From NCBI GenBank assembly GCA_017546505.1, contig JAFYWV010000018.1, forward strand, positions 43,368 through 107,367: a stretch of 64,000 bases of DNA, read 5' to 3'. Positions within the stretch are counted from its first letter, which is position 1, and each line of letters starts with the position of its first letter. Positions 5,369 through 41,776 of this stretch are shown here, one piece after another. Made by a program: the position numbers and the translations under genes. Under the pieces are notes generated by a model. That model saw only the letters and a list, made by a program, of their open reading frames with translations. It did no database searches and was not told the DNA's origin. This DNA comes from Bacteroidaceae bacterium. GTDB taxonomy: Bacteria > Bacteroidota > Bacteroidia > Bacteroidales > Bacteroidaceae.

Positions 5369-5400
5369 ATGCAAATAATGATTATACCAGTGATGGTATC

Positions 5401-5431
5401 GAGGGTGAGCGTAATGCTTGCCCTCTTTTTT
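5401..5431 (+). terminator. Rho-independent terminator
   Basis: A 10-bp stem (GAGGGTGAGC with GCTTGCCCTC, two G-T pairs) with loop GTAAT is followed by six T. It ends the 4928 transcript. Confidence 0.9.
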
Positions 5432-5448
5432 GTGCGTGCTGAAAATAT

Positions 5449-5512
5449 TTTGCATATATAATTATATTTCTTTGCGTTTGCTTGCGTATTTGATTATATT
5501 TGCGTATATTTG
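5449..5512 (+). promoter_or_regulatory. Phage tandem promoter element, copy R3
   Basis: CTTG at 5481-5484, a 20-bp spacer with GTATTTGATTATATTT, and TATATTTG at 5505-5512. An upstream degenerate unit starts with TTTG at 5449-5452 and carries ATAATTATATTT. It drives the 5549 cluster. Confidence 0.75.
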
Positions 5513-5548
5513 CATATAGGATTAAAAACAAACGGCAATAACAACGGT

Positions 5549-5944: not shown

Positions 5945-6243
5945 AAGAAGCATTGAAAATGGTTGATGAAATGGTCAACAGCATCAAGGTATCAGAGTTG
6001 AATTTACTCAAGGCGAGAATGGCCAAGCACGGAGTGTTCCGTTTTCAGGATGGTAGTGAGCCTGTTGTCCCGGTAAAACTGCGATATGGCAAAGACGCAG
6101 GTATCGCAGAGTACAAGATTAGAGGAGTATATATGAGCGAGGGGGAAGTAAAGTTCCTCGGCGTGAACACAGTGTTAGAAATAAAGCCCAGCGACATCTT
6201 TGCTGGTTACCTTTCCAAGATAACAGCATTGATTTATGAATGA
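5941..6243 (+). CDS. Hypothetical phage protein, 100 aa
   Basis: The start overlaps the preceding stop (ATGA), which indicates translational coupling. It has an N-terminal helix followed by a beta-rich part. No domain is recognised. It overlaps the following gene by 8 bp. Confidence 0.65.
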   Translation: MKEALKMVDEMVNSIKVSELNLLKARMAKHGVFRFQDGSEPVVPVKLRYGKDAGIAEYKIRGVYMSEGEVKFLGVNTVLEIKPSDIFAGYLSKITALIYE

Positions 6244-8433: not shown

Positions 8434-9495
8434 ATGGACTTTAAAAATTTTACAGTTGACAATGGCGCAATCAGAGACTTGCGCGAACTTATGTTCATGA
8501 CTGCTTTTGCCGATCCTGATTTGGAGGCAATCCTTACCACGAAGACTGGCGTCTACAACGGTAAGAAACTTGGCTTCATCAACGACCTCGGTGACGTCGG
8601 TCTTGACAGAAACGGTTGTAACCCTGAATACTCAAACATCAATATCACAGGTGCTGAGAAGGAGTGGGATTTGGGTACTTGGGAGATTGCCAAGCACATC
8701 TGTTACACTGAACTGGAGAACACCATCGCCGAGCACTGCCTCAATGGTGGCACAGAGATCGATGACCTCGGTCCTACAGTGTATATGAATGAAATCCTCA
8801 TTCCTCTCTTGCAGAAGGCAATGAAGGAAATGTTCTGGCGTATCGCTTGGTTCGGTGACAAGTCAGCGAAGAACATCGCAGACTCTGGTATCCTTACCGC
8901 AGGTGTTAACCCCAAGTTGTTCACAATGTGTGACGGTTTGTGGAAGCGTTTGCAGGCTATCATCGCGGCAAACCCCAACCAGCATACTGTTATCGAGGCT
9001 AACTCGGCATCAACCTATGCGGCACAGAAGAACGGTATCAGAACATCCGGCACAGCTATCAAGCTCGTGGATGATATGTTGTCTGATGCTGACTCACGCA
9101 TCTTTGACGACCCCAACGCGGCAATCTTTATGACCAGTTCACTCTTCAAGGCGTTGCGTAACGATCTTGTAGACAAGTACGGCAAGTACACAATGCCTGT
9201 TGAGCAGCTTGCTGCAGGTATCAACCTTGCACAGTACGACGGCCACAAGATTATCGCTCTCGACATCTGGGACCGTATGATCAAGAAGTATGAGGACACA
9301 GGTACCAAACTCAACTGTCCTCACCGTGCTGTAATCACCACACCGTCTAACTTGTTTGTCGGTACAAACGACAGCAAGTTGGTGAGCACATTGCGTGTGA
9401 ACTTCAACGAGGAGACAGAGTACAACAACATTCTTGCGAAGTCAAAGATCGGTACCTTGATTGGTGAGGATGCACTTGTGCAGGTAGCAATCTAA
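8434..9495 (+). CDS. Major capsid protein
   Basis: The 353-residue protein is placed between the protease-scaffold gene and the portal region, where the major head protein is expected. Its length and mixed alpha/beta composition fit an HK97-fold capsid. The N-terminal helix (IRDLRELMFMTAF), central KEMFWRIAWFGD and C-terminal SNLFVGTNDSKLVSTLRVNFN strands are typical of Bacteroidetes phage capsid proteins as I know them. Codon use is strongly biased, as expected of a highly expressed gene. Confidence 0.8.
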   Translation: MDFKNFTVDNGAIRDLRELMFMTAFADPDLEAILTTKTGVYNGKKLGFINDLGDVGLDRNGCNPEYSNINITGAEKEWDLGTWEIAKHICYTELENTIAEHCLNGGTEIDDLGPTVYMNEILIPLLQKAMKEMFWRIAWFGDKSAKNIADSGILTAGVNPKLFTMCDGLWKRLQAIIAANPNQHTVIEANSASTYAAQKNGIRTSGTAIKLVDDMLSDADSRIFDDPNAAIFMTSSLFKALRNDLVDKYGKYTMPVEQLAAGINLAQYDGHKIIALDIWDRMIKKYEDTGTKLNCPHRAVITTPSNLFVGTNDSKLVSTLRVNFNEETEYNNILAKSKIGTLIGEDALVQVAI

Positions 9496-9503
9496 AAAAA
9501 GAG

Positions 9504-9509
9504 AGGAGG
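9504..9509 (+). promoter_or_regulatory. Strong Shine-Dalgarno site
   Basis: A full AGGAGG lies 5 nt before the ATG at 9515. Most genes in this window have A-rich leaders without a recognisable Shine-Dalgarno, as is usual in Bacteroidetes, so this site is exceptional and supports high expression of the following virion gene. Confidence 0.7.
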
Positions 9510-9514
9510 ATAAT

Positions 9515-10108
9515 ATGCCAGATGTATGTGATTTCAGATTAGCATCAAATATGGTGGCTAATTGTGAGAAGCCTTCAATCGCTGGTCTTAGGAACAATGG
9601 TTACATCATCAATTTCGATGACATCGACTTTGAAAATTCGGTGCGTGACTCGAGCAATCCTAATATTATCACTTCTCTCGTCCTGTTATCTGGTAAGAGA
9701 GCTTACAATGTGTATGTACCGGGCAAGACTCCGTTCTCTGGAACGAAAAAGAGCCTTGTCACTGGTACCTACAGGAATAAGTTCTCGAAAGATGTATCCA
9801 TTGTCATTCTTGACAACGGACCGGACGTAGCAAAGAACGTGATTGACCAGTTGGCAAACGGAACGTTCGTGGTTGTTTTGGAAAACAAGTTTGCAGGTGC
9901 AGACGGTAAGAACACCTTTGAGATTTACGGCTTTGAGGCTGGTTTGACAGCAACAGCCCTTGACGATGACAAGTATTCAGAAGAGAGTGACGGCGGTTGG
10001 GCTTGCACATTGCAGGAGACAGGTGCTCCAAGCTCGGGCTTGTACTTGTATAACACATCGATAACAGCTACTCGCCAGTCATTGGCATCATTGGTGGCTG
10101 GTTCTTAA
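9515..10108 (+). CDS. Virion structural protein, possibly tail-tube-like
   Basis: The 197-residue, beta-rich, Ser/Thr/Gly-rich protein lies just after the major capsid gene and has an unusually strong ribosome site. The segments FVVVLENKFAGADGKNTFEIYGFEAGL and the C-terminal Ala/Ser tail recall tail-tube or decoration proteins. Sequence alone does not decide between these. Confidence 0.6.
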   Translation: MPDVCDFRLASNMVANCEKPSIAGLRNNGYIINFDDIDFENSVRDSSNPNIITSLVLLSGKRAYNVYVPGKTPFSGTKKSLVTGTYRNKFSKDVSIVILDNGPDVAKNVIDQLANGTFVVVLENKFAGADGKNTFEIYGFEAGLTATALDDDKYSEESDGGWACTLQETGAPSSGLYLYNTSITATRQSLASLVAGS

Positions 10109-12618: not shown

Positions 12619-15600
12619 ATGTCATTAACAAATAAATCAACTTTGATAAATGATGCCCAGCTTATCCGCTATGCCGAACAGGAGGGTTTCAATACGGCAG
12701 AAAGAGTTGGTAAACTGTTCGTCGATTTCATCAACAATGCTGATGCGGCGTTGGCACAAGAGGTTGCGAACAGACAAAGTGCTGACAATGTTCTCCAGCA
12801 GCAGCTGACCACAACAACGAGTGTGGCCAATAGTGCACAGAGTACAGCGACCAACGCCAACACTAAGGCGACCAACGCTTTCAACCTCATCACTCTGCTT
12901 GAGCAATCAATCGGAGCGGCTGGCGGTATTGTTCCTCTTGACAACCTTTGCAAGATACCGTCGGCCTATCTGCCGTCATTTATGGATGACGTATTGGAAT
13001 TCTTCAATATAGGAAGTTCCAATATGGTTGTTAATTTTGGAACAACACTCCAAAAAAAGTCCACCGACGAGGATTGTAGAGTCCTTTACAAAGAAGACAC
13101 CAACGTCTTTGTATTTCACGACACAGAAGAAGGAATATATTATTCTGACTGTCTTGATGGAGATACATGGGGTGTTGACAATGGCAACGGACGTGTGCCT
13201 CACTCTGGCAAAGTGTATTTGTGTATCGCCAGCAATAAGTCTTACCGTTGGAGTGGTACACAACTTACCGTTATCGGTAATGACCTTGCTTTGGGCGAAA
13301 CATCTTCAACAGCCTTTCCTGGTAGCAGAGGAGTGACTTTGGAGAGATATGTTGATAATCTTTTAAAGTATGCAGCGGAGCACAACAGAACCTTTGTGAA
13401 CATCAACAGATGGAAAGAAACGGCAGATGCAATAACATTGGACGAAGCGATAGACCACCTTGTAAACGGAGCACGTATAGAGTATGGTATTATCATTACA
13501 TACTTTACAGTTGATGGCTGGGTGACAAAACAGTATGTAGGAGCAAGTTCCATCAGTGAGTTTTACAAGCATAGCAACTGGAAAGACTATGGCAACGGTG
13601 GCGGTTCATCAACTGGAAACATTGTCAATGTAAACGAGATTGCCCCTCTCACAGAAGGATATTATTCTCGTGCAAAGGCAGCACTTGCCGTTCCTGAAGA
13701 ACTGCGTACATCCGGCCGTAAGATGACCTTTATGAGTGCATCTAACGAATGGCAGACGTGGCAGTTTGTAGGTACCATCATTGATGACTGGGTAGATGAG
13801 AACTACTGGAAGCCAGAAATAAAGGGTGTGTCTTTCAATGGAGCAGAACCTGTATCACCCAATGCCAACGGCATTATCGAGTTGCAGTATGAGGTAACGG
13901 TGGACCAGGAAGCAAATGCCGAAAGTACGAACCCAATTTCGAATGCCCACGTTACACAACGCTTCACAGAACTGCAAGACTCTTTGGCCGCAGGACTTGA
14001 TGTCGATCCTGTAACGCGAGTTCTCACATTGAAAGATGCCAAAGGAGAGGCAATGTCATCAGTTACTCTACCTGAAGGTGGAGGTGGTGGCAACACCAAT
14101 CCGACTGCGATTGAGCTTATCATCAACAGCGACCTGTCGGCAACAATCAAAGAGGGTGATGAGTGGAATCTCGAATTCACTTGGCGACACTACAGTCTCA
14201 AGGATAATGTCGATACACAATACAGCGGCCGTGCAGAATTGATTGTAAACGGTTCAAGCGTTGCAAGTAAGGATGTCGTACAAGGTATCCAATCGTTCGA
14301 TGTCAGCAAGTGGCTAAACGTCGGTATGAACAGTGTGCGTGTGAAAATCACAGCCGATGACGGCATTATCGCACAGTCTGCCTACCTGAAACTGTCGGTA
14401 GTAACATTGAATATCTCTTCAAGTTATTCTTTGGCCACTATCACAGAGAAAGGCACAGCGATACCGTTCCGTTATGTCGTGACCGGTAGTGGTACCAAGG
14501 TCGTAAACTTTGTGCTTGACGGCAATCCGCTCCCGACCGAAACGATTACTGCTTCTGGAGCAACCAACGTCAAGAGCATTGCTACATCTGGTTTGTCACA
14601 CGGAGCCCATAGCCTTGTAGTCTATGCGGAGCGTGAAATATCGGCAGGCACTATGCTTGAATCAAACCACCTGTATTTCGACCTGATGATTACAGAGAGT
14701 GGTACACAGACAACCATTATCGCGACAGAGTTCAACACGCCCGAGGTAGAACAGTACAAGACCATTGTAATACCTTTTGCAGTGTATGACCCATCTGCAG
14801 TAACATCCAATGTGGATATTCTCATTAACGGAGTGTTGAGCACGGCAATGGAAGTGGACCGTAGCCGACAGACTTGGAGTTATCGTGCGAAAAATGCCGG
14901 TGACTACACATTCACAATCCGTGCCAACGGAATTGAGCGTAATATCGCAGTAAAGGTGACTGAAGCCAGCACACAAATTTCTGCCGAGACCGATGCTCTT
15001 GCCCTCTATCTGTCTTCATCTGGCCGAAGCAATTCTGCCACAAACAAGGCAGACTGGAGTTTTACGGCTGAGAATGGCAGTACTGTACAGGCTCAATTCT
15101 CAAACTGTGAGTTCGATGAGCAGAGCGGTTGGAAAGCTGATGCGAATGGCCTTGTATCACTTCACCTTGCGAAAGGAGCCCAGTGCTACATTCCATATTA
15201 TCCTTTTGCGTTCGACGGCAAGACCACAGGAAAAACCATTGAGATAGAGTTCAGTAGTAGCAACTGCTATGATGCAGATGCTGTCCTTATCAGTTGCTTG
15301 CATGGAGTGGTAGGCTTTGAGATAAATGCTCAAGAGTGCTATTTCCAGTCAGCATTGAAGAAGAAGATCAGTACGAAGTTCAAGCAGAACGAGCGTATTC
15401 GTGTTGGTTTCGTAGTGCAAAGCGTTGCAGAGAGTCGTTTCATTTTCCTCTTCTTGAACGGTAAAATGAGTAACGTGATACAATACGATACAAGCGACTA
15501 TTTCGTGCAGACAGTACCTGTGGGTATCACATTGGGTAACGCAAGCTGCGAACTTGATATATACAACATTCGTGTGTATGACAATGCCTTGTCGTTCCGT

Positions 15601-18600
15601 CAGATGATAGACAACTACATTGCCGATATGGATGACACCGAAGTGATGTTTGCTAAGTTGGCAGAGAACGACATTCTCAATGCCGACAGTGCAGAGCCAG
15701 AGGTGGAGTATGACAAGGTTGTGGATAAAATCCCTTGTATGACCCTCATCGGTGCAATGCCTAAATATAAGGGCGACAAGAAGAAGGACACCAAGATTGT
15801 TTATGAGGACAGATTGCACCCTGAATTCTCATTTACTTGCGATAAATGTCAAAACGACGTGCAAGGAACATCATCACAATATTATCCACGCAAGAACTGG
15901 AAGTTCAAGTTCCTTACTGACATTATCTACACCAAGTCTGGAGCCATAGCAAGTAAGTATGCTCTCCGTGGTGTTGATGGTAACGGTAATCTTGTACCGC
16001 AGAAAGCCGTCAAGACATTCTGCTTGAAGGCTGACTTTGCCGAGAGTTCTGGTACACACAATACAGGTGCTGCGAACTTCATTAACGAGGTTCTTGTGAA
16101 AGCCGGCATTCTCACACCACCCCAGCAGGTCGATTCAACAGTGCGTACCACTATCTACGGTTTCCCGATCCTCCTGTTCCATCAAGAGACAGAGAGCAGT
16201 CCGCGTGTATTTATCGGTAAGTACAACTTTAACAACGACAAGAGCACGCAGGATACATTCGGCTTTGAGAAGATTGCTGGTTACAACAAGGGAATGATTA
16301 ACCGCGATGACTATCTGTTGTACCCGGGTACTCTCGCACAGTTACAGAAAGATGTAGATGCTTTGTCTGAAGCAGAGGATGATGGTGAATACTTAATGTA
16401 CCTCATCGACGACGAGAGTGACGGAGTCTATTACAATCACCTTGTAGAGTATGATGCCGCAAACGGGGCTTGGGTAGATAAGGGAGAGTTATGGATGTGG
16501 GATGCCTACAACAAGAACTGGTGTAGCCGTGCTGGTTTATCCTTTACAGATGGCCTGAACAAAGTGAAAGATGGTTACCTTGTAGAGAACAACTGCGAAT
16601 GTTGGGAGTTTACAAACAACGGTAACGCAATGTGTCTTTTCCACGCCAGCGACTTCGAGACAAAGGTGTATGGCGATGACATTCCTGACTGGTTTGATAA
16701 TGACTGGTTGCCGACCGACAGTGAGGGTAAGAAGTACGCACCATATTGGGCAACAGCCTTTGAGCCTCGCTACCCAGACAATGACAATATGTTTATGCAC
16801 TATGCAAAGGGCCGTGTTCCTAAGCAGTTGAAACGCATTTGTGATTGGTTGTATTCGCTCGATGTGACTCGCGCCAACCTCACTGAAGCAGAGAGACAGG
16901 CAATGGATGCTCGTTTCCGTGCGGAATATACCCAGTATTTCCACAAAGACTCGATGTTGAGCTACGACTTGATACGTGAGGGTATTCTTGCAGCCGACCA
17001 AGGTGCAAAAAATATGATGTGGGTATTCTTCGACGGCTTGTGCTATCTCATTTTCTATGACAACGACACTATCTGGGGCTTGAACAACGAGGGTCGTAAC
17101 CAGTTCGGTCCTTATGTTGAGCCTCACGATAAGGACTCGCTTGGTAAATTCGTGTTCAATGGTGAGAGCAGTGTTATTTGGAACCTGATAGAGCGTAACC
17201 TTGAGGCGGAAAAGAACGTCATCTATGAGCGTTTGGTTTCACAGGGCGACTTCACCTATGAGCGAGCTTTGTACTGGTTCAATACACGCCAGAGTGATAT
17301 GTGGTGCGAAACCATCTACAACGAGGACGGTAAATACAAGTATATAGACAGTTTCGGTGCAGCGTCAGAAGAAGACGGAAGTGCTCAAGACTATCTTGAG
17401 ATAGCCCAAGGATCGCGTGAGGAACACAGAAAGTGGATGATGTATGAGCGTTTTGCTTACCTCAATGCAAAGCGTTGTACTGGTACATATCGCGAAAGTA
17501 GTGTATATCTCCGTGCGAACACGAATGGTGCAAGTACAGTGCCTTACAATGTGGCCGTAAACCTTACCGCGGCACAGGACTGGTATTTCGGTTTCCGTTT
17601 CTCTGGTAACGCAGGTTACAGCAGTCGTTTGTTGAAAGCGAATGAAACATACACATTCACCGCACCAGCAGGCAGTGTTCCTAATGATACAGAGACCTAC
17701 ATTTATCAGGCAGACCGAATAAAGAAACTTGGTGATCTGTCAGTCCTTTATCCGACAACGTTGGTTGTTGGAGCCTGCAAACTGCTTGAAGAGCTGATTG
17801 TGGGCAACGATACACCCGGATATGTCGGCAAGTTGGCAACGCTCACACTTGGCACACACCCTCTCCTGAAGAAGATAAACATTGTGAACTGCCCCACCTT
17901 GCAAAGTTCATTGGGAGTCACAGGTTGCTCAGCTTTGGAGACCATATATGCTCAAGGCAGTAAGATAACAGCAGTCAATCTGCCAGTTGCTTCTGTGGTA
18001 CGTTATATGCACCTCCCCGAAACGCTGGTTCAGTTACTGTTTGACCGTTTGCCGTACCTCACATACGACAACTTGGTCATTGACGGATATTCAGGAATCC
18101 AGACCGTAAACATCGTTAGTTGTCCGCGACTTGATGCGATGCGTATTCTTGAGGATATTATGAAAACTCCAAACAACTCGTTGCAGTATGTCCGCGTAAC
18201 CGACATTGACTTGGAGGGTGACGGACAGGTATTGCTTGATATGATGCATCTGAAGGGTGCAGAAAACAAGAACGGCGCTCCCGAGTTGTTCGGAAAGTAC
18301 ACCTTGACACGCTATATGCCAGAAGAGGACTACAACCGTATCGTTGAGTGCTATCCATACCTGAACATCATCAATCAGGAGTTCACATTGATATGCTTTG
18401 ATGACACTGTAGAGGATGAGGAAAACATCAGCAATATGGATAACAAGACAGGTTATCTATTCTCTGATGACAACCACACCGTTCCATTTGAACCAAGTGG
18501 TCACGTTTTGAACATCCTCAACCAACGCCACGCAGTTTTGGGCAAATATCAAGGTGTAGTGAACGGCAGAGGTAAAATGATAGTGTGTCAGCTCGATGAC

Positions 18601-20034
18601 AACAATCGTGCGAAATACTATGACGGTACAGTTGCCAATCTGCAAGGTGACCGCAACGACTCAATGTCTGATGAAGGTGATGCATTCATCTTTGAGCCAC
18701 ATTATTGGTATAAAGGTGTTAATGACTACATCAACAACCGCAAGTACCACGCATACAGTTCAAGCAGGACTGTACCACAGGATGTAGGCCAGTTATCTGA
18801 AAAGGTAAGACTCAGTGAACTTGAGGTATTCGCAGGATATGGTTTGAGTTCTGGAGGTATGGAAGAGGGTGTCTTGGTTGAGGATATGCTCAAAGTGTAC
18901 GACAGCTACAATGTCTACCGTCTTCCTATCGGGGGTTACAAGATGGTACGTTGGCCAGGCATTGCGTCAGGCTCATATTGTGCCGCTTTTGCTGATGCTG
19001 ACGGTTTGTTCATTAGTCTCGTTAAGATGACCAGCAACAGTGGTTACATAAACGGAGATTATCTGTTTGCTGAAGTGCCGGAGAATGCTGTCACATTCTA
19101 CTTTACTGCACCAAAGGAATTCGACACCAACTGTTTCCCTGACATCTGCGTAAAATGCCGCAGTACGAATGTTGTTGCTGTTGAGCCCGACTGGGTAGAA
19201 CACGAAGAGTGTCTTTGCGGTATCTACGAGGCGAACTATGAGAACGATTTAATGCGTTCAATCAGTAATGCCAAAGCGACAAACAACCTCACTGCAGGCT
19301 CATACATCCAATTTGCAAAGGATCGTGGTACTGGTTTCCAAACAGTGGATTACGAAATGAGCAAGGATGTAGCCAACCTATTTATGGCGAAGTATGGTCG
19401 CCGAGATAGCCAGAAGCAATGCGGTTACGGTAGCAATACGACAGCAAGTGTAGCGGGTAAGACAGACTTCCTTGGTATGAGAGACACTATCAATCCAAAT
19501 AATGCAACTGCTAATGGTTTCTATTACAAAGATACAGTCTTGACATCAATAGCTGCCGTGAATGTGATGGGCTATGAGAACTGGCAAGGTGACAGCGGAG
19601 AGTGGATGAGTAATGTCGGTATCGGCAACGGTGCTTATGTTACAGATAGCCTCGGAGCAGGAAGACAGACCAAGACTGCCGTATGGCAAATACTTATGCC
19701 TAATGGTGAAACACGCGAGGTACAAGGTATAACAGCCTCTGATAAGTACATTATCAAGGTACGCAATGGTAGATTTATGGATGTTATTGCCTCACACGCT
19801 GGCGGTACTTCTTCTACATACTATTGCGACTACCAGTGGTTCTCAACTTCTCAAAATCGTGTGGTGCTTCGGTCGTACTTCTATGCGCATGCGAGTGGCG
19901 GTATCGTCTGTGCGGGTGCGCGTAGCGATTCGTCGGTTGCGTATACGAGCTACGGTTCTCGGCTTGCCTTCAGAGGCATAATTGAGTGGGCCACCAGTGT
20001 CGAAGAGTACAAACGTGCTGTGATGAGGGCTTAA
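12619..20034 (+). CDS. Giant tail / receptor-binding protein, DGR target 1
   Basis: The 2,471-residue protein has in order: an N-terminal tail-attachment region with a Gln/Ala/Thr coiled coil (about 40-95) and a PSAYLPSFMDDV motif (about 113-124); Ig-like beta domains (about 495-780); a lectin or LamG-like beta domain (about 790-1000); a CotH-kinase-like region (GTSSQYYPRKNWKFKF near 1082, FYDNDTIWG near 1478); Leu-rich repeats (about 1700-1860); and a C-terminal C-type-lectin-like module ending in the DGR variable segment VR1 (about 2413-2450). It is followed at once by the TR and the reverse transcriptase. The inferred role is host recognition at the virion tip, diversified at its C-terminus. 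No separate tape-measure gene is seen in the window, so podovirus-like morphology is possible. Confidence 0.85.
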   Translation: MSLTNKSTLINDAQLIRYAEQEGFNTAERVGKLFVDFINNADAALAQEVANRQSADNVLQQQLTTTTSVANSAQSTATNANTKATNAFNLITLLEQSIGAAGGIVPLDNLCKIPSAYLPSFMDDVLEFFNIGSSNMVVNFGTTLQKKSTDEDCRVLYKEDTNVFVFHDTEEGIYYSDCLDGDTWGVDNGNGRVPHSGKVYLCIASNKSYRWSGTQLTVIGNDLALGETSSTAFPGSRGVTLERYVDNLLKYAAEHNRTFVNINRWKETADAITLDEAIDHLVNGARIEYGIIITYFTVDGWVTKQYVGASSISEFYKHSNWKDYGNGGGSSTGNIVNVNEIAPLTEGYYSRAKAALAVPEELRTSGRKMTFMSASNEWQTWQFVGTIIDDWVDENYWKPEIKGVSFNGAEPVSPNANGIIELQYEVTVDQEANAESTNPISNAHVTQRFTELQDSLAAGLDVDPVTRVLTLKDAKGEAMSSVTLPEGGGGGNTNPTAIELIINSDLSATIKEGDEWNLEFTWRHYSLKDNVDTQYSGRAELIVNGSSVASKDVVQGIQSFDVSKWLNVGMNSVRVKITADDGIIAQSAYLKLSVVTLNISSSYSLATITEKGTAIPFRYVVTGSGTKVVNFVLDGNPLPTETITASGATNVKSIATSGLSHGAHSLVVYAEREISAGTMLESNHLYFDLMITESGTQTTIIATEFNTPEVEQYKTIVIPFAVYDPSAVTSNVDILINGVLSTAMEVDRSRQTWSYRAKNAGDYTFTIRANGIERNIAVKVTEASTQISAETDALALYLSSSGRSNSATNKADWSFTAENGSTVQAQFSNCEFDEQSGWKADANGLVSLHLAKGAQCYIPYYPFAFDGKTTGKTIEIEFSSSNCYDADAVLISCLHGVVGFEINAQECYFQSALKKKISTKFKQNERIRVGFVVQSVAESRFIFLFLNGKMSNVIQYDTSDYFVQTVPVGITLGNASCELDIYNIRVYDNALSFRQMIDNYIADMDDTEVMFAKLAENDILNADSAEPEVEYDKVVDKIPCMTLIGAMPKYKGDKKKDTKIVYEDRLHPEFSFTCDKCQNDVQGTSSQYYPRKNWKFKFLTDIIYTKSGAIASKYALRGVDGNGNLVPQKAVKTFCLKADFAESSGTHNTGAANFINEVLVKAGILTPPQQVDSTVRTTIYGFPILLFHQETESSPRVFIGKYNFNNDKSTQDTFGFEKIAGYNKGMINRDDYLLYPGTLAQLQKDVDALSEAEDDGEYLMYLIDDESDGVYYNHLVEYDAANGAWVDKGELWMWDAYNKNWCSRAGLSFTDGLNKVKDGYLVENNCECWEFTNNGNAMCLFHASDFETKVYGDDIPDWFDNDWLPTDSEGKKYAPYWATAFEPRYPDNDNMFMHYAKGRVPKQLKRICDWLYSLDVTRANLTEAERQAMDARFRAEYTQYFHKDSMLSYDLIREGILAADQGAKNMMWVFFDGLCYLIFYDNDTIWGLNNEGRNQFGPYVEPHDKDSLGKFVFNGESSVIWNLIERNLEAEKNVIYERLVSQGDFTYERALYWFNTRQSDMWCETIYNEDGKYKYIDSFGAASEEDGSAQDYLEIAQGSREEHRKWMMYERFAYLNAKRCTGTYRESSVYLRANTNGASTVPYNVAVNLTAAQDWYFGFRFSGNAGYSSRLLKANETYTFTAPAGSVPNDTETYIYQADRIKKLGDLSVLYPTTLVVGACKLLEELIVGNDTPGYVGKLATLTLGTHPLLKKINIVNCPTLQSSLGVTGCSALETIYAQGSKITAVNLPVASVVRYMHLPETLVQLLFDRLPYLTYDNLVIDGYSGIQTVNIVSCPRLDAMRILEDIMKTPNNSLQYVRVTDIDLEGDGQVLLDMMHLKGAENKNGAPELFGKYTLTRYMPEEDYNRIVECYPYLNIINQEFTLICFDDTVEDEENISNMDNKTGYLFSDDNHTVPFEPSGHVLNILNQRHAVLGKYQGVVNGRGKMIVCQLDDNNRAKYYDGTVANLQGDRNDSMSDEGDAFIFEPHYWYKGVNDYINNRKYHAYSSSRTVPQDVGQLSEKVRLSELEVFAGYGLSSGGMEEGVLVEDMLKVYDSYNVYRLPIGGYKMVRWPGIASGSYCAAFADADGLFISLVKMTSNSGYINGDYLFAEVPENAVTFYFTAPKEFDTNCFPDICVKCRSTNVVAVEPDWVEHEECLCGIYEANYENDLMRSISNAKATNNLTAGSYIQFAKDRGTGFQTVDYEMSKDVANLFMAKYGRRDSQKQCGYGSNTTASVAGKTDFLGMRDTINPNNATANGFYYKDTVLTSIAAVNVMGYENWQGDSGEWMSNVGIGNGAYVTDSLGAGRQTKTAVWQILMPNGETREVQGITASDKYIIKVRNGRFMDVIASHAGGTSSTYYCDYQWFSTSQNRVVLRSYFYAHASGGIVCAGARSDSSVAYTSYGSRLAFRGIIEWATSVEEYKRAVMRA
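19857..19967 (+). repeat. DGR variable repeat VR1
   Basis: This 111-bp segment in the 3' end of the giant tail gene aligns to the TR at 20,145-20,255 without gaps. All 17 differences are at positions where the TR has A (to T, G or C); none is at a TR G, C or T. They alter 13 codons, 12 of them AAY in the template. The 3' ends share an invariant GGTTCTCGGCTTGC, the expected initiation site of mutagenic homing. Confidence 0.97.
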
Positions 20035-20491
20035 TGCCAGAGGCAGAGCGAAAAAATGCGGAAGCGGTGCGCGGTGCGTGAGATCTGTCAAACGCACCCC
20101 ACCCCTTTCAAAAAACAAAAATATGGCGGATTTTCCCAAGGCACTCGTGTGGTGCTTCGGTCGAACAACAATGCGAATGCGAATGGCGGTATCGTCTATG
20201 CGAATGCGAATAACGATTCGTCGAATGCGAATACGAACAACGGTTCTCGGCTTGCAAACATTATAAATGGAAAGAAAAACGGTTAACGCTTTCAGTAGAT
20301 ACCCAGTGTGTCTGCTTTGAAATATTTGCCTACTACAACGAGGATGTATCCTCAAGGTAGCGCAAAGGGAAATGAGCCACAGCAACAGCAATAACAATTG
20401 GAAAGCTGAAAAATAAACCTTGGAGTAGAGTTTGGTAGGGACAGCAGTGTCAGCCGAAGAAGTCGGGCTCCAAAAAAATGAAGGCGTAAAA
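20035..20491 (+). ncRNA. DGR template RNA region, VR1 to reverse transcriptase
   Basis: These 457 bp between the target stop and the RT start contain the TR and no convincing gene. A possible GGTGCG/CGCACC hairpin lies before the TR (about 20,071-20,097). After the TR, about 235 nt include small hairpins such as GACA/TGTC just before the RT. In known DGRs the RNA flanking the TR guides the RT complex. No open frame for an Avd accessory protein is present here. Confidence 0.7.
20145..20255 (+). repeat. DGR template repeat TR
   Basis: This is the 111-bp donor sequence for VR1 and VR2. It holds twelve AAY codons in the frame used by the targets, the classical DGR design: adenine randomisation of AAY can give 15 amino acids and no stop codon. 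Identity with both VRs begins at TCGTGTGG and ends at CTTGC. It lies 178 bp past the end of VR1 and 237 bp before the RT start. Confidence 0.97.
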
Positions 20492-21925
20492 ATGAGACGA
20501 ATAGGAAAAACATCAAATCTAATCGAGCAGATTATAGATGAGCACAATCTTGATGAGTCCATCGATGCGGTAATTCACGGCAGACGTCGTAAGAAATCGC
20601 GTTCTGGACGGCGAATCCTCTTCAACAGGGATAAAGTGAAAAGCAGATTAGCAAAGGCTATCAGCGAAGGCACTTTTCACCTGACAGGCTATTATGAGCG
20701 AGAGGTTACAGACGGTCCTAAAAACCGCATAGTGCAGAGTGTCAATCTTTATGAGCGTATAGGTTGCCACGCCATTATGAACGTGGTTGAAAAATATGTC
20801 TACGGAAGGTATATCCGCACTACCGGTGCAAGTATCAAGCGTCGCGGAATGCACGACCTGATGAACTACATCCGGAACGACATCAAAATGTACGGTGATG
20901 AAATGAAGTATTTCTATAAGTCAGATATTCGGAAATTCTATGAAAGCATAGACCAGGATGTAATGATGACAGCCTTGCGTAAATTGTTCAAGGACCGCAT
21001 CCTGCTAACAATTCTTGAACGGTTTGTACGAATGATGCCCAAGGGGTTGAGCATAGGTTTGAGAAGTTCACAAGGCTTTGGCAATATGCTGCTGTCAATA
21101 TACCTTGACCATATCATAAAGGACAAACACGCAGTCAAGCACTACTACCGCTATTGCGATGACAAGGATGTGCATCATAGCAGTAAAAGAGAGTGTTGGA
21201 AGACACGAGATAAAATCCACGAAGCGGTAAACCGAATAGGTATGGATATAAAGCCCAACGAGCGTGTCGCACCAATCACGGAAGGACTGGACTTTCTCGG
21301 CTATGTTATGTACCCCACTCATACGCGATTGAGAAAACGCAACAAGCAGAAGGCTGCACGTAAGTTGCATAAGGTACAGAGCAAGAAACGGAGGGTGGAA
21401 CTTATAGCATCGCTGTATGGTCAATGCAAACACGCAGATTGTAAAAATTTATTCAAGAAACTAACAGGAATGAGTATGGAAGAGTACAAGCGTTTGAAAG
21501 ACTTTGGAATCAAGCCACAGTATGATGACGGCAAAAAGCGATTCAATTGTGAAGAGATTAACATTTCCGAACTTGAGGGCGAGGAATATGTGATAGAAGA
21601 TTTTGAGAGCGGTGTCATAACAAAACCGTTGCGTAAGGACTACGACAGCAAGGTAGAGGAAGCAAAGAGGATAATGGAGGAATATCAGCAAAAGAATATT
21701 CCGTTGCCGAAAGGTTTCATCGCACCTGACCAGATACCGCTCCCAGTAGGAAAGTATTTGGTACACATAAAGTACAAGAATGGCAAGACTGCAAAATTCT
21801 TTACTGGCGACAAAGAGAACTGGTCAATCCTTGAGCAGATGCGTAAGCAGGAGTTGTTGGGCCAATGTCTTTGTAGTGTGGAGAAAAGAAAGTGTAAGGG
21901 TTTCTGCCGCTGGGTGATTTGCTGA
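20492..21925 (+). CDS. DGR reverse transcriptase with C-terminal extension
   Basis: The start at 20,492 is chosen because the upstream extension lies in template RNA sequence and an ATG at 20,478 stops after three codons. The 477-residue enzyme has RT motifs SDIRKFYESID (palm Asp), the DGR-specific IGLRSSQ and the catalytic YCDD (in YYRYCDDKD), then a basic thumb region with FLGYVM. It copies the TR RNA with errors at A for transfer into the VRs. The last roughly 150 residues form an extra region (GKYLVHIKYKNGKTAKFFTGD near the end, five Cys in the final 30) beyond the usual core. I do not recognise this extension. No avd gene is adjacent. Confidence 0.95.
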   Translation: MRRIGKTSNLIEQIIDEHNLDESIDAVIHGRRRKKSRSGRRILFNRDKVKSRLAKAISEGTFHLTGYYEREVTDGPKNRIVQSVNLYERIGCHAIMNVVEKYVYGRYIRTTGASIKRRGMHDLMNYIRNDIKMYGDEMKYFYKSDIRKFYESIDQDVMMTALRKLFKDRILLTILERFVRMMPKGLSIGLRSSQGFGNMLLSIYLDHIIKDKHAVKHYYRYCDDKDVHHSSKRECWKTRDKIHEAVNRIGMDIKPNERVAPITEGLDFLGYVMYPTHTRLRKRNKQKAARKLHKVQSKKRRVELIASLYGQCKHADCKNLFKKLTGMSMEEYKRLKDFGIKPQYDDGKKRFNCEEINISELEGEEYVIEDFESGVITKPLRKDYDSKVEEAKRIMEEYQQKNIPLPKGFIAPDQIPLPVGKYLVHIKYKNGKTAKFFTGDKENWSILEQMRKQELLGQCLCSVEKRKCKGFCRWVIC

Positions 21926-21956
21926 AGCACAATGTCTAACCGTAATAAATGAAAAA

Positions 21957-22574
21957 ATGAAAAGAGATAAAGATTTTATAGTTCTACTTGACCCCGGCCA
22001 CGGTGAAAACACACCCGGGAAGAGAAGTCCAGACGGAAAATTCCGTGAGTATCTGTTTGCGAGAGAGGTCGCACAGGAAATAGAGCGTGAGCTTCGCAAG
22101 AGTGGTTACAAATGCGAACGCATTATAAAGTGCGCGATGGATGTATCACTTGCAGAAAGGGCAAAAATCGTGAATGAATACTGCAAGGAATATGGCACAA
22201 ATAACGTGATACTAATCTCCATTCACGTGAATGCCGCCGGCAATGGTGAGCAATGGATGAACGCACGAGGATTTGAGATTTACACCAGTCCAGGCAAGAC
22301 AAAGTCGGATGTTCTTGCAGAGTGCATCTTTGAAGCGGCCAAGGCGCTGTTGCCAGATATGAATATGCGTGCAGACCTCAGCGATGAAGACCACGACAAG
22401 GAGGCACGTTTCGCAATGCTGACACAGACTAAATGCGTGGCGGTACTTTCAGAGAATCTATTTCAGGACAATCGAGAGGATGTGGCTTTCCTCTGTTCAT
22501 TGGAGGGAAAAAAGAAAATTGTTGAACTCCACTTGCAGGGAATACTTAACTATATCAATAAAATCAAAAAGTAA
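21957..22574 (+). CDS. N-acetylmuramoyl-L-alanine amidase, probable endolysin
   Basis: This 205-residue Amidase_3 enzyme cuts the bond between MurNAc and the L-Ala of the peptide stem. Zinc ligands are His15 (LLDPGHG), Glu31 and His90 (SIHVNA), with catalytic Glu166 (LSENLF). It has no signal peptide and no cell-wall-binding domain, so it would need a holin or similar for access. It lies after the tail and DGR module, in the usual lysis position. Confidence 0.9.
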   Translation: MKRDKDFIVLLDPGHGENTPGKRSPDGKFREYLFAREVAQEIERELRKSGYKCERIIKCAMDVSLAERAKIVNEYCKEYGTNNVILISIHVNAAGNGEQWMNARGFEIYTSPGKTKSDVLAECIFEAAKALLPDMNMRADLSDEDHDKEARFAMLTQTKCVAVLSENLFQDNREDVAFLCSLEGKKKIVELHLQGILNYINKIKK

Positions 22575-22579
22575 GACGT

Positions 22580-23071
22580 ATGGATAACAGAATCGGTGGT
22601 TACATTGACACTCTCATAAGCTGTGTCAATGTCAGGAAAAAGAAGTATGCCATTTATTGGGATAAGCAGGAGGATAAAGAGTCGGAGGGTAACTTTACCT
22701 TTATGCAACACGTGTTTGACCACAAGCCCACATTGGAGGAAATCAAGAGTGTTATAATCAGTTGGTATAACGCTAAAATCGATAACGAAATCCTTACTGG
22801 TTTCGTGTGGAAAGGAATGTCCGTGTGGCTCTCAACTGAAAACCAGTTCAATTACAAGGTTGCCTTTGATGCGGCAATAATGAGTAATGGTGCTACGCTT
22901 CCTGTGAAATTCAAGTTCGGCAATGACGAGGAGCCCATCTATTACCAGTTCAGCACGATAGATGAATTGCAGGACTTCTATTTCAAGGCCATTGCCTATG
23001 TGCAGTCGGTGTTAGAAAGCGGTTGGAGAGAAAAGGACTCAATAAACTGGAGCGAGTATGTCATTGATTAG
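22580..23071 (+). CDS. DUF4376-like phage protein
   Basis: The 163-residue protein has a C-terminal half with the pattern ILTGFVWKGMSVWLSTENQFNYK, ATLPVKFKFG and DELQDFYFKAIAYVQSVLESGW. I know this pattern from DUF4376-type proteins located next to phage tail genes, where it also occurs at the end of fibre-assembly proteins. The role is unproven. It overlaps the next gene by 14 bp. Confidence 0.65.
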   Translation: MDNRIGGYIDTLISCVNVRKKKYAIYWDKQEDKESEGNFTFMQHVFDHKPTLEEIKSVIISWYNAKIDNEILTGFVWKGMSVWLSTENQFNYKVAFDAAIMSNGATLPVKFKFGNDEEPIYYQFSTIDELQDFYFKAIAYVQSVLESGWREKDSINWSEYVID

Positions 23072-23546
23072 CCAGCTTTGTATGGTGGGTGCTTCGTGTA
23101 TGGCACTCACCATATATTTGTTAATTTATCTGTTGAAATACGGAGTTCCAGAGTCCGTGAGTGCCACATACTACTCAGAATTACCCAAATGGGCATTTTC
23201 TACGACTCTCGCAGTTGCAGGAGGTTTTCTGTTGATTCCTTGGATAGAAATTTCCGAAAAAACGGAATTCTGTGCGTTCATTGCGACTGTTTCCGTGTTT
23301 TTTGTCGCATCCAGCCCGACATTCAAGGAAAAATTTGTCGGGAAGGTGCATTATGGGTCTGCAATAACTCTTTTTATCACATCAGTGGTCTGGCTACTGG
23401 CAAACGACGGTTTTTGGGCTTTTCTGCTCGCTTCTCTTGTGCCAGCTATCTTATATCGCACGAAATGGCTGTTTTGGGTAGAAATAGGGCTTTTTATTTC
23501 GATATATTCAACTTTGATAGCATTTCTATTGGCAATTCCCCGATAA
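23058..23546 (+). CDS. Phage membrane protein, about six membrane segments
   Basis: The 162-residue hydrophobic protein has probable membrane helices near 5-27, 45-63, 68-86, 98-115, 118-134 and 138-160. It lies between the endolysin region and promoter R4. Multi-spanning proteins at this place are often holin or superinfection-exclusion proteins; there is no diagnostic motif. It is the last gene of the late unit. Confidence 0.65.
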   Translation: MSLISQLCMVGASCMALTIYLLIYLLKYGVPESVSATYYSELPKWAFSTTLAVAGGFLLIPWIEISEKTEFCAFIATVSVFFVASSPTFKEKFVGKVHYGSAITLFITSVVWLLANDGFWAFLLASLVPAILYRTKWLFWVEIGLFISIYSTLIAFLLAIPR

Positions 23547-23558
23547 TTGAAAATTATT

Positions 23559-23622
23559 TTTGCATATTTGATTATATTTCTTTATGTTTTCTTGTGTATA
23601 TGATTATTTTTGCTTATATTTG
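23559..23622 (+). promoter_or_regulatory. Phage tandem promoter element, copy R4
   Basis: CTTG at 23,591-23,594, a 20-bp spacer with GTATATGATTAT, and TATATTTG at 23,615-23,622. An upstream unit begins with TTTG at 23,559-23,562 and carries TGATTATATTT. The leader contains ATGCAAATAAGATAA (23,626-23,640) and ATCATTTAACCAGTA, both shared with R5. Confidence 0.8.
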
Positions 23623-23669
23623 TATATGCAAATAAGATAAATATAATCATTTAACCAGTACATAACGAT

Positions 23670-24128
23670 ATGAAACGATTTTCAAGAAAACAAATTTCGG
23701 AGATTCTCAACAACAGCAATGCATTTGATGAGCTGAGTCAGGAACTTTTAATTGGTGCCAAGGAAAGCAACCTTGTTGTGTTGTTCGGTCGCGAAGAGGA
23801 CGGCAAAATGATATTTGTCACACGCGGTGCAATCAACAGCGAGCACAGGGTTGATATGGAAGACATCTTCTCTCTAATCCAGAAAGGCGAGAAGTGGACT
23901 GACATCTTCAACGATGATGTAGAGCGAGTTGCTGAAGAAACTATGTTTGCGAACACAGGTTGGGTCTACGAAAACAAGATGTTCTTCGTGTATAACTACC
24001 ATTGTGTAGACCCTACTCCTTGGGTTATCCACACAGATTTCAGGGCAAGCGGTTTTGAAACCATCAAAGATGGTAAGACTTACTGCAAGGGACTTGTGAT
24101 TGACCTCGATGATTACGAATGCAAATAA
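23670..24128 (+). CDS. Hypothetical phage protein, 152 aa
   Basis: This is the first gene after promoter R4. It is a soluble alpha/beta protein with a Phe/Asp-rich centre and a CKGLVIDLDDYECK end. No family is recognised. It starts the unit that contains the second DGR target. Confidence 0.65.
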   Translation: MKRFSRKQISEILNNSNAFDELSQELLIGAKESNLVVLFGREEDGKMIFVTRGAINSEHRVDMEDIFSLIQKGEKWTDIFNDDVERVAEETMFANTGWVYENKMFFVYNYHCVDPTPWVIHTDFRASGFETIKDGKTYCKGLVIDLDDYECK

Positions 24129-24141
24129 GAACATATTGACT

Positions 24142-24543
24142 ATGAACGACAAAGAAAAGGTTATGAATTCCGATGCAAATAAAGCGCTGGAAGGGGCCAT
24201 AAAAATCCTCGCACCAGATTTCAGTAAAATGTGTGCGAACGTAATGAATGGCGAAAGGATTGACAAAGGATGCAGCTTTGAATTTTCCCAAGAGAAAATC
24301 GAGGAAGAAATCAGGAAAAGGTCTGTAACAGCCGAGGAGCGTGAGAAGCATATCATCGGGAAGTTGCTGGAGTCGCTGACAGAGAAAGAGTGGAAAAGCG
24401 AAATTGGCTGCAAACTCAGTGTACTTATAGAAGACCTGATTGGCATCCGCAGTTTGATAAACTGCAAGAAAGAGTTTGGCATTAGCCTGACCGACAACGA
24501 GATTATGTACTTGGTAAACGTAATGAACGCAAGGGAGGAATAA
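24142..24543 (+). CDS. Hypothetical helical protein, 133 aa
   Basis: The ATG at 24,142 lies 23 nt after another ATGCAAATAAGA leader motif. The mostly helical, Glu/Lys-rich protein was considered as an Avd candidate because of helicity and size. It is acidic, lies 2 kb beyond the RT, and lacks any similarity I can recognise. The function is unknown. Confidence 0.65.
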   Translation: MNDKEKVMNSDANKALEGAIKILAPDFSKMCANVMNGERIDKGCSFEFSQEKIEEEIRKRSVTAEEREKHIIGKLLESLTEKEWKSEIGCKLSVLIEDLIGIRSLINCKKEFGISLTDNEIMYLVNVMNAREE

Positions 24544-24545
24544 TT

Positions 24546-24776
24546 ATGAAAAACTGGGAAGAGAAAATTTCTAAGGCATACGATAAGATGGGAGAATGCC
24601 TGGGTGTGGGTATTTGTGTATGCGGAGTGTTGATGTTCGGAGGTCACATCTACAGAATGATAGCAGAATGCGACTTCACATTCAAGCAGTTCATTTACCT
24701 GTGTGCCTTTTTTGTGATAGCATTCCTTGCATACATTCTGATGAAAGGGTTGAAGAAATATGGTAAAGAAAACTAA
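24546..24776 (+). CDS. Small two-helix membrane protein, holin candidate
   Basis: The 76-residue protein has two likely membrane segments (about 19-37 and 47-68) separated by a short acidic loop, with charged ends. This is the topology of class II holins. It lies 2 bp after the previous gene. The call is by topology only. Confidence 0.5.
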   Translation: MKNWEEKISKAYDKMGECLGVGICVCGVLMFGGHIYRMIAECDFTFKQFIYLCAFFVIAFLAYILMKGLKKYGKEN

Positions 24777-24852
24777 AGCACAGGGTACATCATCTTGCAA
24801 AAATCCCCAATGGCCACGCTGGAGGGGCAGAGAAAGGCTCTATCGCGTTTGA
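24760..24852 (+). CDS. Possible 30-codon basic minigene
   Basis: An ATG frame overlaps the end of the small membrane gene by 17 bp and encodes a very basic peptide (10 Lys/Arg in 30) rich in Trp and Pro. It lies in the otherwise geneless stretch before DGR target 2. It may be chance. Confidence 0.3.
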   Translation: MVKKTKAQGTSSCKNPQWPRWRGRERLYRV

Positions 24853-24856
24853 GCTA

Positions 24857-24919
24857 ATGACAGTTTATTGCGATTCAGAAAAAGTTTATAAAGAATATCC
24901 AAAATATAAAGAGTATTAA
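24857..24919 (+). CDS. Possible 20-codon minigene
   Basis: A short ATG frame rich in Tyr and Lys (MTVYCDSEKVYKEY) starts 5 bp after the previous minigene and ends 17 bp before DGR target 2. Translation is possible but unproven; it may be a leader peptide. Confidence 0.25.
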   Translation: MTVYCDSEKVYKEYPKYKEY

Positions 24920-24936
24920 TTTCTAATCAAATAGTT

Positions 24937-25539
24937 ATGAGTAACAAAAAAATTGAAATTGAAGTAAAGGACCTGAAGGGTCTTTACGACATCCTTACCA
25001 ACTACCCTCAAATATCAAAGGAGCAGGTGGAGTGTGAAATGAAAAAGGTCTTCGGTGAAGATGTGTTCAAGCCGGCCGATATCCGTGACCGCATCAAAAC
25101 ATTTCACGATGCTTACTGTGCGCTCGGTAATGACCACCCATTTGTGGTGTCGTACGAAAAGTATGTCAATGCGGCCAGTGGTGAAGAGGCTGACGTTATA
25201 GCGTTCCTCCAGCTCCGCATTATTGCGGCCGCTCTCAACGAGGGCTGGAAGCCCAAGTTCACAACTGACGAATGGCGTTACTACCCCTATTTCTATCTTG
25301 TAACAAATGATGAAATAGAAAAGATGGATGAAGATGAACGTTCTCGTGTGGTGCTTCGGTCGAGCCACGATGCGAATGCGTTTGGCGGTATCGTCTATGC
25401 GAGTGCGGTTTACGATTCGTCGTATGCGTATACGAGCCACGGTTCTCGGCTTGCCTTCAAAAACCGTGACCTTGCAATTTACGCCGGTCAGCAGTTCATT
25501 GACATTTATGCAAACTTTTGTTTCCCGACTCAAGAGTAA
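24937..25539 (+). CDS. Small DGR variable protein, target 2
   Basis: The 200-residue protein has an N-terminal domain (1-65, KDLKGLYDILTNYP and an FHDAYCALGNDHPFV helix) and a second helical part (FLQLRIIAAALNEGWKP). The C-terminal YPYFYLVTNDEIEKMDEDE leads into the variable segment (about 136-173) and ends in LAIYAGQQFIDIYANF. I recall related small variable proteins in other Bacteroidetes phages. It has no signal peptide or fibre-like sequence and lies among non-structural genes, so its ligand is unknown. VR2 shares all non-adenine bases with the TR, so this gene is served in trans by the RT 3 kb upstream. Confidence 0.9.
   Translation: MSNKKIEIEVKDLKGLYDILTNYPQISKEQVECEMKKVFGEDVFKPADIRDRIKTFHDAYCALGNDHPFVVSYEKYVNAASGEEADVIAFLQLRIIAAALNEGWKPKFTTDEWRYYPYFYLVTNDEIEKMDEDERSRVVLRSSHDANAFGGIVYASAVYDSSYAYTSHGSRLAFKNRDLAIYAGQQFIDIYANFCFPTQE
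25344..25454 (+). repeat. DGR variable repeat VR2
   Basis: This 111-bp segment of the 24,937 gene aligns to the TR without gaps. All 13 differences lie at TR adenines and change 11 codons, all of them AAY in the template. One AAY codon is unchanged. The homing end GGTTCTCGGCTTGC is identical to TR and VR1, and VR2 shares a further CTTCA with VR1 that is absent from the TR. Confidence 0.97.
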
Positions 25540-27382: not shown

Positions 27383-27392
27383 ATTGAAGCGT

Positions 27393-27911
27393 ATGAAAAT
27401 AATTGTGGCTACTGATGAAGAATACAATTTGGTGAGGAAATATCTACCAGAGTTTGATGTACTGCAGACAGGTGTTGGGGCATCAAATGTAATAAATAAA
27501 TGCTGTGATTTGTCATCCAAGGTTGATGTTATAAATATTGGCTTTTGTGGGAGCAACAACCTGAAGATAGGTAGTGTTGTCACTGTCAGCAAGACATATA
27601 GGCTATTGACGAGCAACATTGCCTTTAAGGACTACCGAAATGGCTATGTGCTTTCGGATACAGGTTATCCTTGCTACACAAGCAATGAGTTCGTGACAAA
27701 GACAGACATAAAAGAAGATTGTGTCTTCGATATGGAACTAAACTATCTCGCCGCATTCAATTTCAACTTGCTTGGTGCAGTGAAGATTGTTAGCGACAAT
27801 TTGAGTGTATGGGAGTATGAACAGTCCGTCGATATTGATGACAAGTGCATCTGGGATGAAGTCAAAAGACAACTATATCAAATCATAGGTACCAAGGTAG
27901 GCATAATTTAA
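27393..27911 (+). CDS. Nucleoside phosphorylase / MTA-SAH nucleosidase-like protein
   Basis: The 172-residue protein matches the purine nucleoside phosphorylase fold: TGVGASNV near the N-terminus, VINIGFCGSNNLKIGSVV in the centre, FDMEL (the substrate-binding Glu) and KIVSDN (the catalytic Asp). It is shorter than typical 5'-methylthioadenosine/SAH nucleosidases (about 230). In that family the products are adenine and a ribose derivative from MTA, SAH or 5'-deoxyadenosine. Two other SAM-linked genes are nearby (28,651 and 31,388). Substrate is not decided by sequence. Confidence 0.75.
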   Translation: MKIIVATDEEYNLVRKYLPEFDVLQTGVGASNVINKCCDLSSKVDVINIGFCGSNNLKIGSVVTVSKTYRLLTSNIAFKDYRNGYVLSDTGYPCYTSNEFVTKTDIKEDCVFDMELNYLAAFNFNLLGAVKIVSDNLSVWEYEQSVDIDDKCIWDEVKRQLYQIIGTKVGII

Positions 27912-28650: not shown

Positions 28651-29901
28651 ATGAAGAAAGGTTATTTATTCACATCGGAGTCAGTGTCTGAAGGACACCC
28701 CGACAAAGTAGCGGACCAGATTTCGGACGCTATTGTAGATGCCTATTTGGCACAGGACAAAACATCAAAGGTTGCTTGTGAGACACTTGTTACCACTGGT
28801 CAGGTAGTTATTGCAGGCGAGGTGCGGTCACAGGGTGTAATCGACGTACAGAAGGTTGTACGCGGTGTCATCAAGCGTATCGGTTACAATGATGCCGCAT
28901 ACAAGTTTGAAGCAGAGAGTTGTGGAGTGCTTTCAGCATTACACGAGCAGAGTGCAGACATACATCGTGGTGTAGAACGAGCAGAACCAATGGAACAGGG
29001 AGCTGGAGACCAGGGTATGATGTTCGGTTATGCCACAAACGAAAGTGACAGCTATATGCCCCTCTCTTTGGATTTAGCACACCGCATATTACTGGTGCTT
29101 GCTGAAATCCGTCGTGAAGGCAAAGAAATGAAATACCTACGCCCAGATGCAAAGAGTCAAGTTACCATTGAGTACAACGAGGACAACAAGCCTGTTCGCA
29201 TTGACACCATCGTCGTGTCTACCCAGCACGATGAGTTTGCTTCTGATAAAACAATGCAGGAGGTCATCAAGTATGATGTCATAAATATTCTTATGCCGAG
29301 GGTTATTGCCGGCATTGAGAACGATAAAGTCTTGGCACTTTTCAACGATGAGATCAAATACCACGTAAACCCAACTGGAAAATTCGTTATAGGTGGTCCT
29401 CACGGTGATACTGGTCTTACCGGCAGAAAGATTATTGTCGATACCTACGGAGGCAAGGGTGCACATGGTGGCGGTGCTTTCAGCGGTAAAGACCCCAGCA
29501 AGGTAGACCGTAGTGCAGCGTATGCCGCACGTTACATTGCAAAGAACCTTGTGGCCGCAGGGGTAGCCGATGAGGTACTTATACAGGTCAGCTATGCCAT
29601 AGGTGTAGCAAAGCCCATAAACATCTATGTCAATACAAACGGAACAGCAAAAGCAAACCTCAGCGACAGTGAGATTGCAGAAAAGGTTGCCGAACTGTTT
29701 GACCTACGCCCGAAGGCAATCGAGGAGAGTCTGAAATTACGTAACCCTATCTACGAGGAAACTGCATCTTATGGTCACTTTGGTCGTGAACCGCAGGTAG
29801 CCAAGAAAGAACTTTCTGATGGCACTACAGTCGATGTAGAACTGTTCACTTGGGAGAAAATTGACAAGGTAGAGGAAATCAAAACAAAGTTCAATCTGTA
29901 A
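28651..29901 (+). CDS. metK: S-adenosylmethionine synthetase
   Basis: The 416-residue MetK makes SAM from methionine and ATP. Key motifs are intact: [13 protein letters not shown] at the N-terminus, [24 protein letters not shown] and [19 protein letters not shown]. Length and motifs indicate an active tetrameric enzyme. It lies among phage genes, 10 bp after the membrane protein and 3 bp before the spanin-like gene, so it is phage cargo and not the housekeeping copy. Confidence 0.95.

Positions 29902-40111: not shown

Positions 40112-41776
<1,665 letters not shown>

Follow-up and report, generated by a model that had tools for sequence, protein, structure and literature searches.

A diversity-generating retroelement in a Bacteroidaceae prophage with one template and two targets, a tail-type protein and a small, likely non-virion protein

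Can a single template of a diversity-generating retroelement (DGR) serve two separate genes of the same prophage, and what kind of protein would the second one be? This question is raised by a prophage in a 64,000-nucleotide stretch of Bacteroidaceae bacterium DNA (the window, positions 43368-107367 of contig C1, JAFYWV010000018.1, in a genome of 130 contigs), where a template repeat (TR) and a gene for a reverse transcriptase (RT) stand between two variable repeats (VR1 and VR2) that belong to different open reading frames (ORFs). The explanation we favour, and hold to be very probably right as a whole, is a one-template DGR that diversifies a tail-type protein as well as a small non-virion protein, with a homing mark common to both.

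We infer that, in this strain, the single TR is copied by an adenine-error-prone RT into two genes. The first destination would be the C-terminal region of a tail-type protein of 2471 aa encoded beside the cassette, whose variation would likely alter host recognition. The second would be the same region of a protein of 200 aa encoded 5 kb downstream, likely a non-virion binding protein that would act within the cell during infection or lysogeny, perhaps in conflicts between host and phage. A boundary that both VRs have at their 3' ends would likely serve as the homing mark (initiation of mutagenic homing, IMH), directing transfer from TR to VR at any distance and on either strand.

One template, two variable repeats and the reverse transcriptase

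VR1 (19857-19967), the TR (20145-20255) and VR2 (25344-25454) lie on the forward strand, measure 111 bp each and align without a gap over their whole length. VR1 ends about 180 bp ahead of the TR, and VR2 starts 5.1 kb past it. The TR holds 28 adenines; read in the frame of the VRs, it has twelve AAY codons. Mismatches to it number 17 in VR1 (8 A>G, 7 A>T, 2 A>C) and 13 in VR2 (6 A>T, 5 A>G, 2 A>C), and every one of them, 17/17 and 13/13, falls on a TR adenine. With 28 A among 111 TR bases, the chance of all-adenine mismatches is 4.7e-13 for VR1 and 1.2e-9 for VR2. Realignment and counting reproduced the coordinates, the gap-free alignment and the numbers of differences that an earlier note on this DNA had reported. 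That note had also derived 15^12 possible protein variants from the twelve AAY codons; the codon count stands, and the figure covers part of the reachable variation, as four further adenine-bearing codons of the VR frame (ATC, TAT, GAT, ACG) were left uncounted.

The two VRs sit near the 3' ends of two ORFs, both open. VR1 occupies the 2471-aa ORF (12619-20034, forward strand) from residue ~2414 onwards; this protein matches phrog_14959 (E 0) and phrog_5302, annotated 'tail protein' (8e-20). VR2 codes the 200-aa ORF (24937-25539, forward strand) from residue 137, and the protein belongs to phrog_11581, a family of unknown function (E 3.7e-56). The targets had been called unlinked: they are indeed separate genes, and the word is loose for two genes inside one prophage.

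The RT gene (20492-21925, forward strand) starts, as had been noted, with an ATG at 20492, and its frame is open throughout. The protein matches phrog_1423 (E 1.2e-77) and carries the motifs IGLRSSQ and YCDD, both conserved in the RTs of relatives; motifs of this type mark DGR RTs. Its best solved relative is 8ub7 (molecule name 'Reverse transcriptase'), which we take to be the BPP-1 DGR enzyme, with an E value of 9.5e-25 versus 2.1e-6 for group II intron enzymes. In the alignment with 8ub7, IGLRSSQ stands opposite IG..TSQ and YCDD opposite YMDD.

Homologs of both targets vary at the codons that a DGR would be expected to reach. Among the best 38 of 120 listed homologs of target 2 (3132 found), the mean number of distinct residues is 9.4 at AAY codons, 4.8 at other adenine-bearing codons, 1.2 at adenine-free VR codons and 1.5 outside the VR. 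The corresponding values for target 1, from the best 25 of 120 listed homologs (1541 found), are 8.3, 3.2, 1.4 and, for the non-VR part of the last 320 residues, 2.9. Judged from these natural variants among homologous proteins, the DGR signature is present in two gene families. The earlier reading of both genes as targets of one template is thus supported, since the differences are confined to adenines, the two VRs carry distinct patterns, the relatives of both proteins are hypervariable at TR-adenine codons and the RT frame is open.

The same observations bear on whether the element still operates. It might be a relic in this strain, having diversified both genes in the past and become inoperative since; a point for this, and one that counts against our explanation, is that no Avd-like gene was found in a search of the strain's own genome with one Pfam family (PF05635), whose single match under the cut-off lies on a different contig. 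To our knowledge, Avd is missing from many DGRs. We consider a relic improbable: the frames of the RT and of both targets are open, as is the TR, many variants of both VRs occur in relatives, and the closest listed homolog of the VR2 protein (P0001, 95% identical) differs from it inside the VR only.

Conservation of the pairing and the shared repeat boundary

Scans with the small protein as a single sequence gave no relatives in genome or viral contigs, but a 24-row alignment of its family did find loci: the viral contigs gave 387 confirmed stretches, with 80 loci kept, and the genomes gave 92, with 78 loci kept. When 50 of the 80 viral loci were searched, a related RT was found in 26 records and not in 24, records that are possibly fragments. 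The small gene was then compared with the RT-flanking DNA of its own record. A TR signature was found on it in 25 of the 26 RT-bearing viral (IMG/VR) records, and VR1 lies beside the RT in 24 of those 25; the sole record without a TR match (L055/L207) has its RT match at the contig end. Gut loci without a TR in their 10-kb flank had at one stage been taken for non-DGR homologs, a view that the same-record RT-flanking DNA overturned for the RT-bearing ones. Pooled mismatches fall on a TR adenine in 337/362 cases for VR2 and 369/387 for VR1 (24 records), where A makes up a quarter of the TR; these fractions are partly conditioned, and to that extent speak less strongly for our explanation, as TR candidates were required to have at least 55% of mismatches at A. 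The 25 records are not all independent and include close relatives such as L046/L060, L041/L049 and L059/L066. On the contigs, whose ends are arbitrary, TR and VR2 are separated by 9.9 to 53 kb, and VR2 lies on the strand opposite to the TR in 6/25.

Two named phages have the same arrangement. In LoVEphage (MW660583), the family member QVQ57199.1, deposited as 'hypothetical protein, No HHsearch hits', has 19/19 of its mismatches at a TR adenine. In BT-TP2 (PQ571279), the small gene spans the ends of the linear record and has 10/10. Membership of the phrog_11581-type family together with a TR-matched VR in the same phage was found for target 2 of the window and for the LoVEphage member. The phrog_11581-type family is a recurrent DGR target. 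One viral contig (L071) carries two copies of the small gene (5329-5967 and 9099-9650), with ends 93% identical over 357 bp.

Among genomes, an RT match was found in 34 of the 42 searched, and RT loci were obtained for 30. With one RT locus compared per genome, a TR was seen in 17/30, one of which (L142) repeats the prophage of the viral record L098, and not in 13/30 (L115, L118, L122, L128, L129, L135, L148, L151, L152, L153, L155, L158 and L163). This rate is weaker than that of the viral records, and the 13/30 are no evidence of absence because the genomes hold several RTs.

In other Bacteroidota, an A-biased partner repeat stands near the small genes in 20 of 27 loci (L166-L192), often with tandem gene copies, and 17 of these 20 have a related RT in the locus. 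In Flavobacteria, Chitinophagaceae and further Bacteroidota, tandem pairs of short VR genes of the same family were seen directly ahead of TR and RT (for example L174 9914-10784 and L191 9917-10754). The surroundings of 17 of these 27 loci were compared through 122 of the 127 proteins listed, the five inside the DGR itself being left out; the matches to phage families among them include 7 to Mu-type transposition proteins and 4 to a neck protein family. A more general scheme may be outlined, tentatively and with a probability somewhat short of even: a standing two-arm DGR of gut Bacteroidota phages, in which one template would serve the tail tip and an early intracellular non-virion binding family, so that attachment and conflict within the cell would evolve by way of one and the same RT, the small family lying elsewhere in Bacteroidota phages directly beside the cassette, often as tandem pairs.

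How could one template find two genes so far apart? Both VRs end in the same adenine-free 14-base tract, at 19954-19967 in VR1 and at 25441-25454 in VR2 (forward strand), each forming an IMH-like boundary. In the window this shared tract ends in GGTTCTCGGCTTGC, and it is followed by CTTC in both VRs (19968-19971 and 25455-25458) versus AAAC in the TR. Of the 25 phages compared, which are the window and 24 records, 23 have a first base past the tract that is alike in VR1 and VR2 and different in the TR; the exceptions are L090 and L098. The boundary as observed fits an IMH mark common to both targets, which is the likely function suggested by these sequences. No hairpin common to the 3' flanks of VR1, VR2 and the TR was obtained on folding; the hairpins differed.

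The CTTC continuation, common to VR1 and VR2 and absent from the TR, is also in favour of a different origin of the variation, namely ordinary recombination of VR2 with VR1 in place of writing from the TR. In the same direction, and against our explanation, VR1 and VR2 agree above chance at non-AAY adenines (33 seen vs 17.5 expected) and somewhat more than expected at second AAY positions (36 vs 28.4), while positions mutated in both are in slight excess (223 vs 193). Moreover, a gene of L162 (2-385), situated just ahead of TR and RT, has a front of the VR2 type and an end of the VR1 type. This may be a fusion of genes or an assembly error through the repeat; the gene begins at the very edge of its contig of 3.9 kb, and it was treated as a possible misassembly. 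The excess agreement could be explained by selection, hot spots or occasional exchange. Against recombination as the source, the two VRs agree at chance level in the base found where both changed at first AAY positions (46 seen vs 47.2 expected), each VR has its own adenine-only mismatches to the TR, and the two are often separated by over 10 kb or placed on different strands. We therefore regard this origin as highly improbable, and writing of both VRs from the TR stands as the better account.

Setting and likely role of the second target

Is the small protein a second attachment protein or something else? It has no Pfam match at E 0.1 and no NCBIfam match at E 0.01, and no obvious signal peptide was seen by eye. 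A first AlphaFold2 model, from 24 sequences, was poor (predicted local distance difference test, pLDDT, 68); with 120 sequences the model reached a pLDDT of 78.8 and has a confident helical framework, with pLDDT <50 over residues 139-168, which make up most of the VR. A C-type lectin fold of the variable loop was looked for, and at that pLDDT the fold of the stretch is not readable from the model. Neither Foldseek nor VIA-align gave a clear PDB relative for the model, a missing match that does not show a new fold, and a profile search of PDB sequences returned one weak match (E 0.059). Four of the 20 listed BFVD matches have an E value of 0.001 or better, and they are uncharacterised phage proteins.

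The immediate neighbours of the small gene were compared across loci of relatives. Among the matches listed, the 71 upstream proteins include 18 metal-dependent hydrolases and 3 DnaC-like loaders, and the 64 downstream proteins include 12 DnaD-like loaders, 7 members of a replication-initiation family, 3 DNA methyltransferases and 3 RecE-like nucleases. Where a neighbour has a named function, this is mostly replication, recombination, methylation or that of a hydrolase, with no head or tail protein among the families listed. This setting suggests that the phrog_11581-type family is likely early and non-virion.

Several points pull the other way. The neighbour counts come from the best 25 of 45 upstream and 25 of 71 downstream PHROG families, which overlap, and a named function is lacking for many neighbours. 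In the window itself, the gene directly downstream of target 2 has no Pfam or NCBIfam match and the one directly upstream has weak matches only, so that the two immediate neighbours are uninformative and the early-gene reading rests on relatives; the dUTPase gene is four genes downstream. Furthermore, the second target of Quimbyvirus is called a C-type lectin by its authors in the part of their paper available to us (Benler et al. 2021, PMC8008677), a designation that, by analogy, fits an adhesin equally well.

These points lend themselves to the view that both targets are receptor-binding proteins of the virion, the 200-aa protein being a second lectin-like adhesin or decoration protein, and that the DGR varies attachment only. 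Such a view gains from the TR-coded sequence common to the variable loops of both targets, and from the phage DGR targets described so far, which, in the accessible portions of two papers (PMC10743442, PMC8144416), are mainly attachment proteins. It is harder to reconcile with a target 2 gene outside the structural run of the window, with the named neighbours listed for relatives, with the small gene lying opposite to the TR in 6/25 records, and with a helical framework that has no clear PDB match, although the loop is not confidently modelled. We judge it possible but doubtful. If the family does work inside the cell, as in our preferred non-virion reading, phage DGRs do more than alter host attachment, and the binding partner of the small protein becomes a direct question.

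Described systems and the wider prophage

The architecture is not unprecedented. As far as the available portions of the papers cited in this section go, phage DGRs have been published that have two targets, the second with a VR that is distal and likely non-structural (PMC8008677, PMC12629997), two-target phage DGRs are known more widely (PMC8143477, PMC10743442), and DGRs with several VRs mostly target several genes (235/271, PMC6642488). One close likeness is the Quimbyvirus DGR (PMC8008677), that of a Bacteroides prophage with one target near tail genes and one distal, the latter called likely non-structural and located beside methyltransferase and tRNA ligase genes. Its RT is split over three frames and its second target lies on the opposite strand, whereas in the window the RT is a single frame and target 2 lies 5 kb off without a change of strand. 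RT matches split over two or three adjacent frames, as described for Quimbyvirus, were also seen in G319 (L057), G371 (L140) and G392 (L164).

LoVEphage resembles the window in that its tail collar gene and its RT gene share a strand and a VR is present in QVQ57199.1, near methyltransferases and RtcB; it differs in the position of this second target, which is encoded on the other strand at ~16 kb from the TR and is hypothetical in the deposited record. The text compared of the paper on this phage (PMC8525569) mentions the RT and not the second target. Four induced gut prophage species (PMC12629997) have a distal second VR, whose family is not named in that part of the paper. The Bacuni phages of Bacteroides uniformis (PMC8143477) likewise combine one TR with two VRs, in an adjacent and a distant target, but both targets are DUF1566 / fimbrial-tip-like, in contrast with the small family without Pfam match here. 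In the nd4 and nd12 DGRs (tentaclins, PMC10743442), one phage DGR also has two functionally different targets, the first being 569-579 aa long with N-terminal C-type lectin and immunoglobulin domains, unlike the 200-aa second target without Pfam match of the window. Finally, the Hankyphage p00 DGR (PMC6199706) has its VR at the C-terminal end of a large tail-type protein and an RT region related at the DNA level, with one VR described versus two here.

Among open-licence PMC papers, we found none that names the phrog_11581 family as a common second target. What our work adds is a generalisation at the family level, with phrog_11581 as second target: scattered reports of a second distal VR are brought to one recognisable protein family, open to searches, expression and testing. 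By its authors' own statement, the RT-centred survey of Roux et al. would not detect remote targets (PMC8144416, seen in part), so that counts of the second arm are probably too low.

The earlier note had placed the element in a prophage, and the ends of this prophage are recognisable. An integrase gene (38726-39943, reverse strand; phrog_1, E 4.8e-13) marks the right end beside groL, and a 16-bp att-like repeat at the groL 3' end (40113-40128) has a second copy at C1 3865-3880, outside the window, from which a size of about 80 kb is likely. A fabG-like gene is found just beyond the left end. The prophage appears inserted at the groL 3' end, the last groL codons being kept through the 16-bp repeat. 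Its genes follow in the order head protease, portal, tail-type protein with VR1, TR, RT and an amidase-type endolysin (21957-22574, forward strand; Pfam PF01520, phrog_435), then the target 2 block with dUTPase and metK, then the integrase. The metK gene (28651-29901) codes for a full-length S-adenosylmethionine synthetase (NCBIfam, 523 bits), and an ORF at 27390-27911, without a Pfam match, resembles by eye a methylthioadenosine/S-adenosylhomocysteine (MTA/SAH) nucleosidase.

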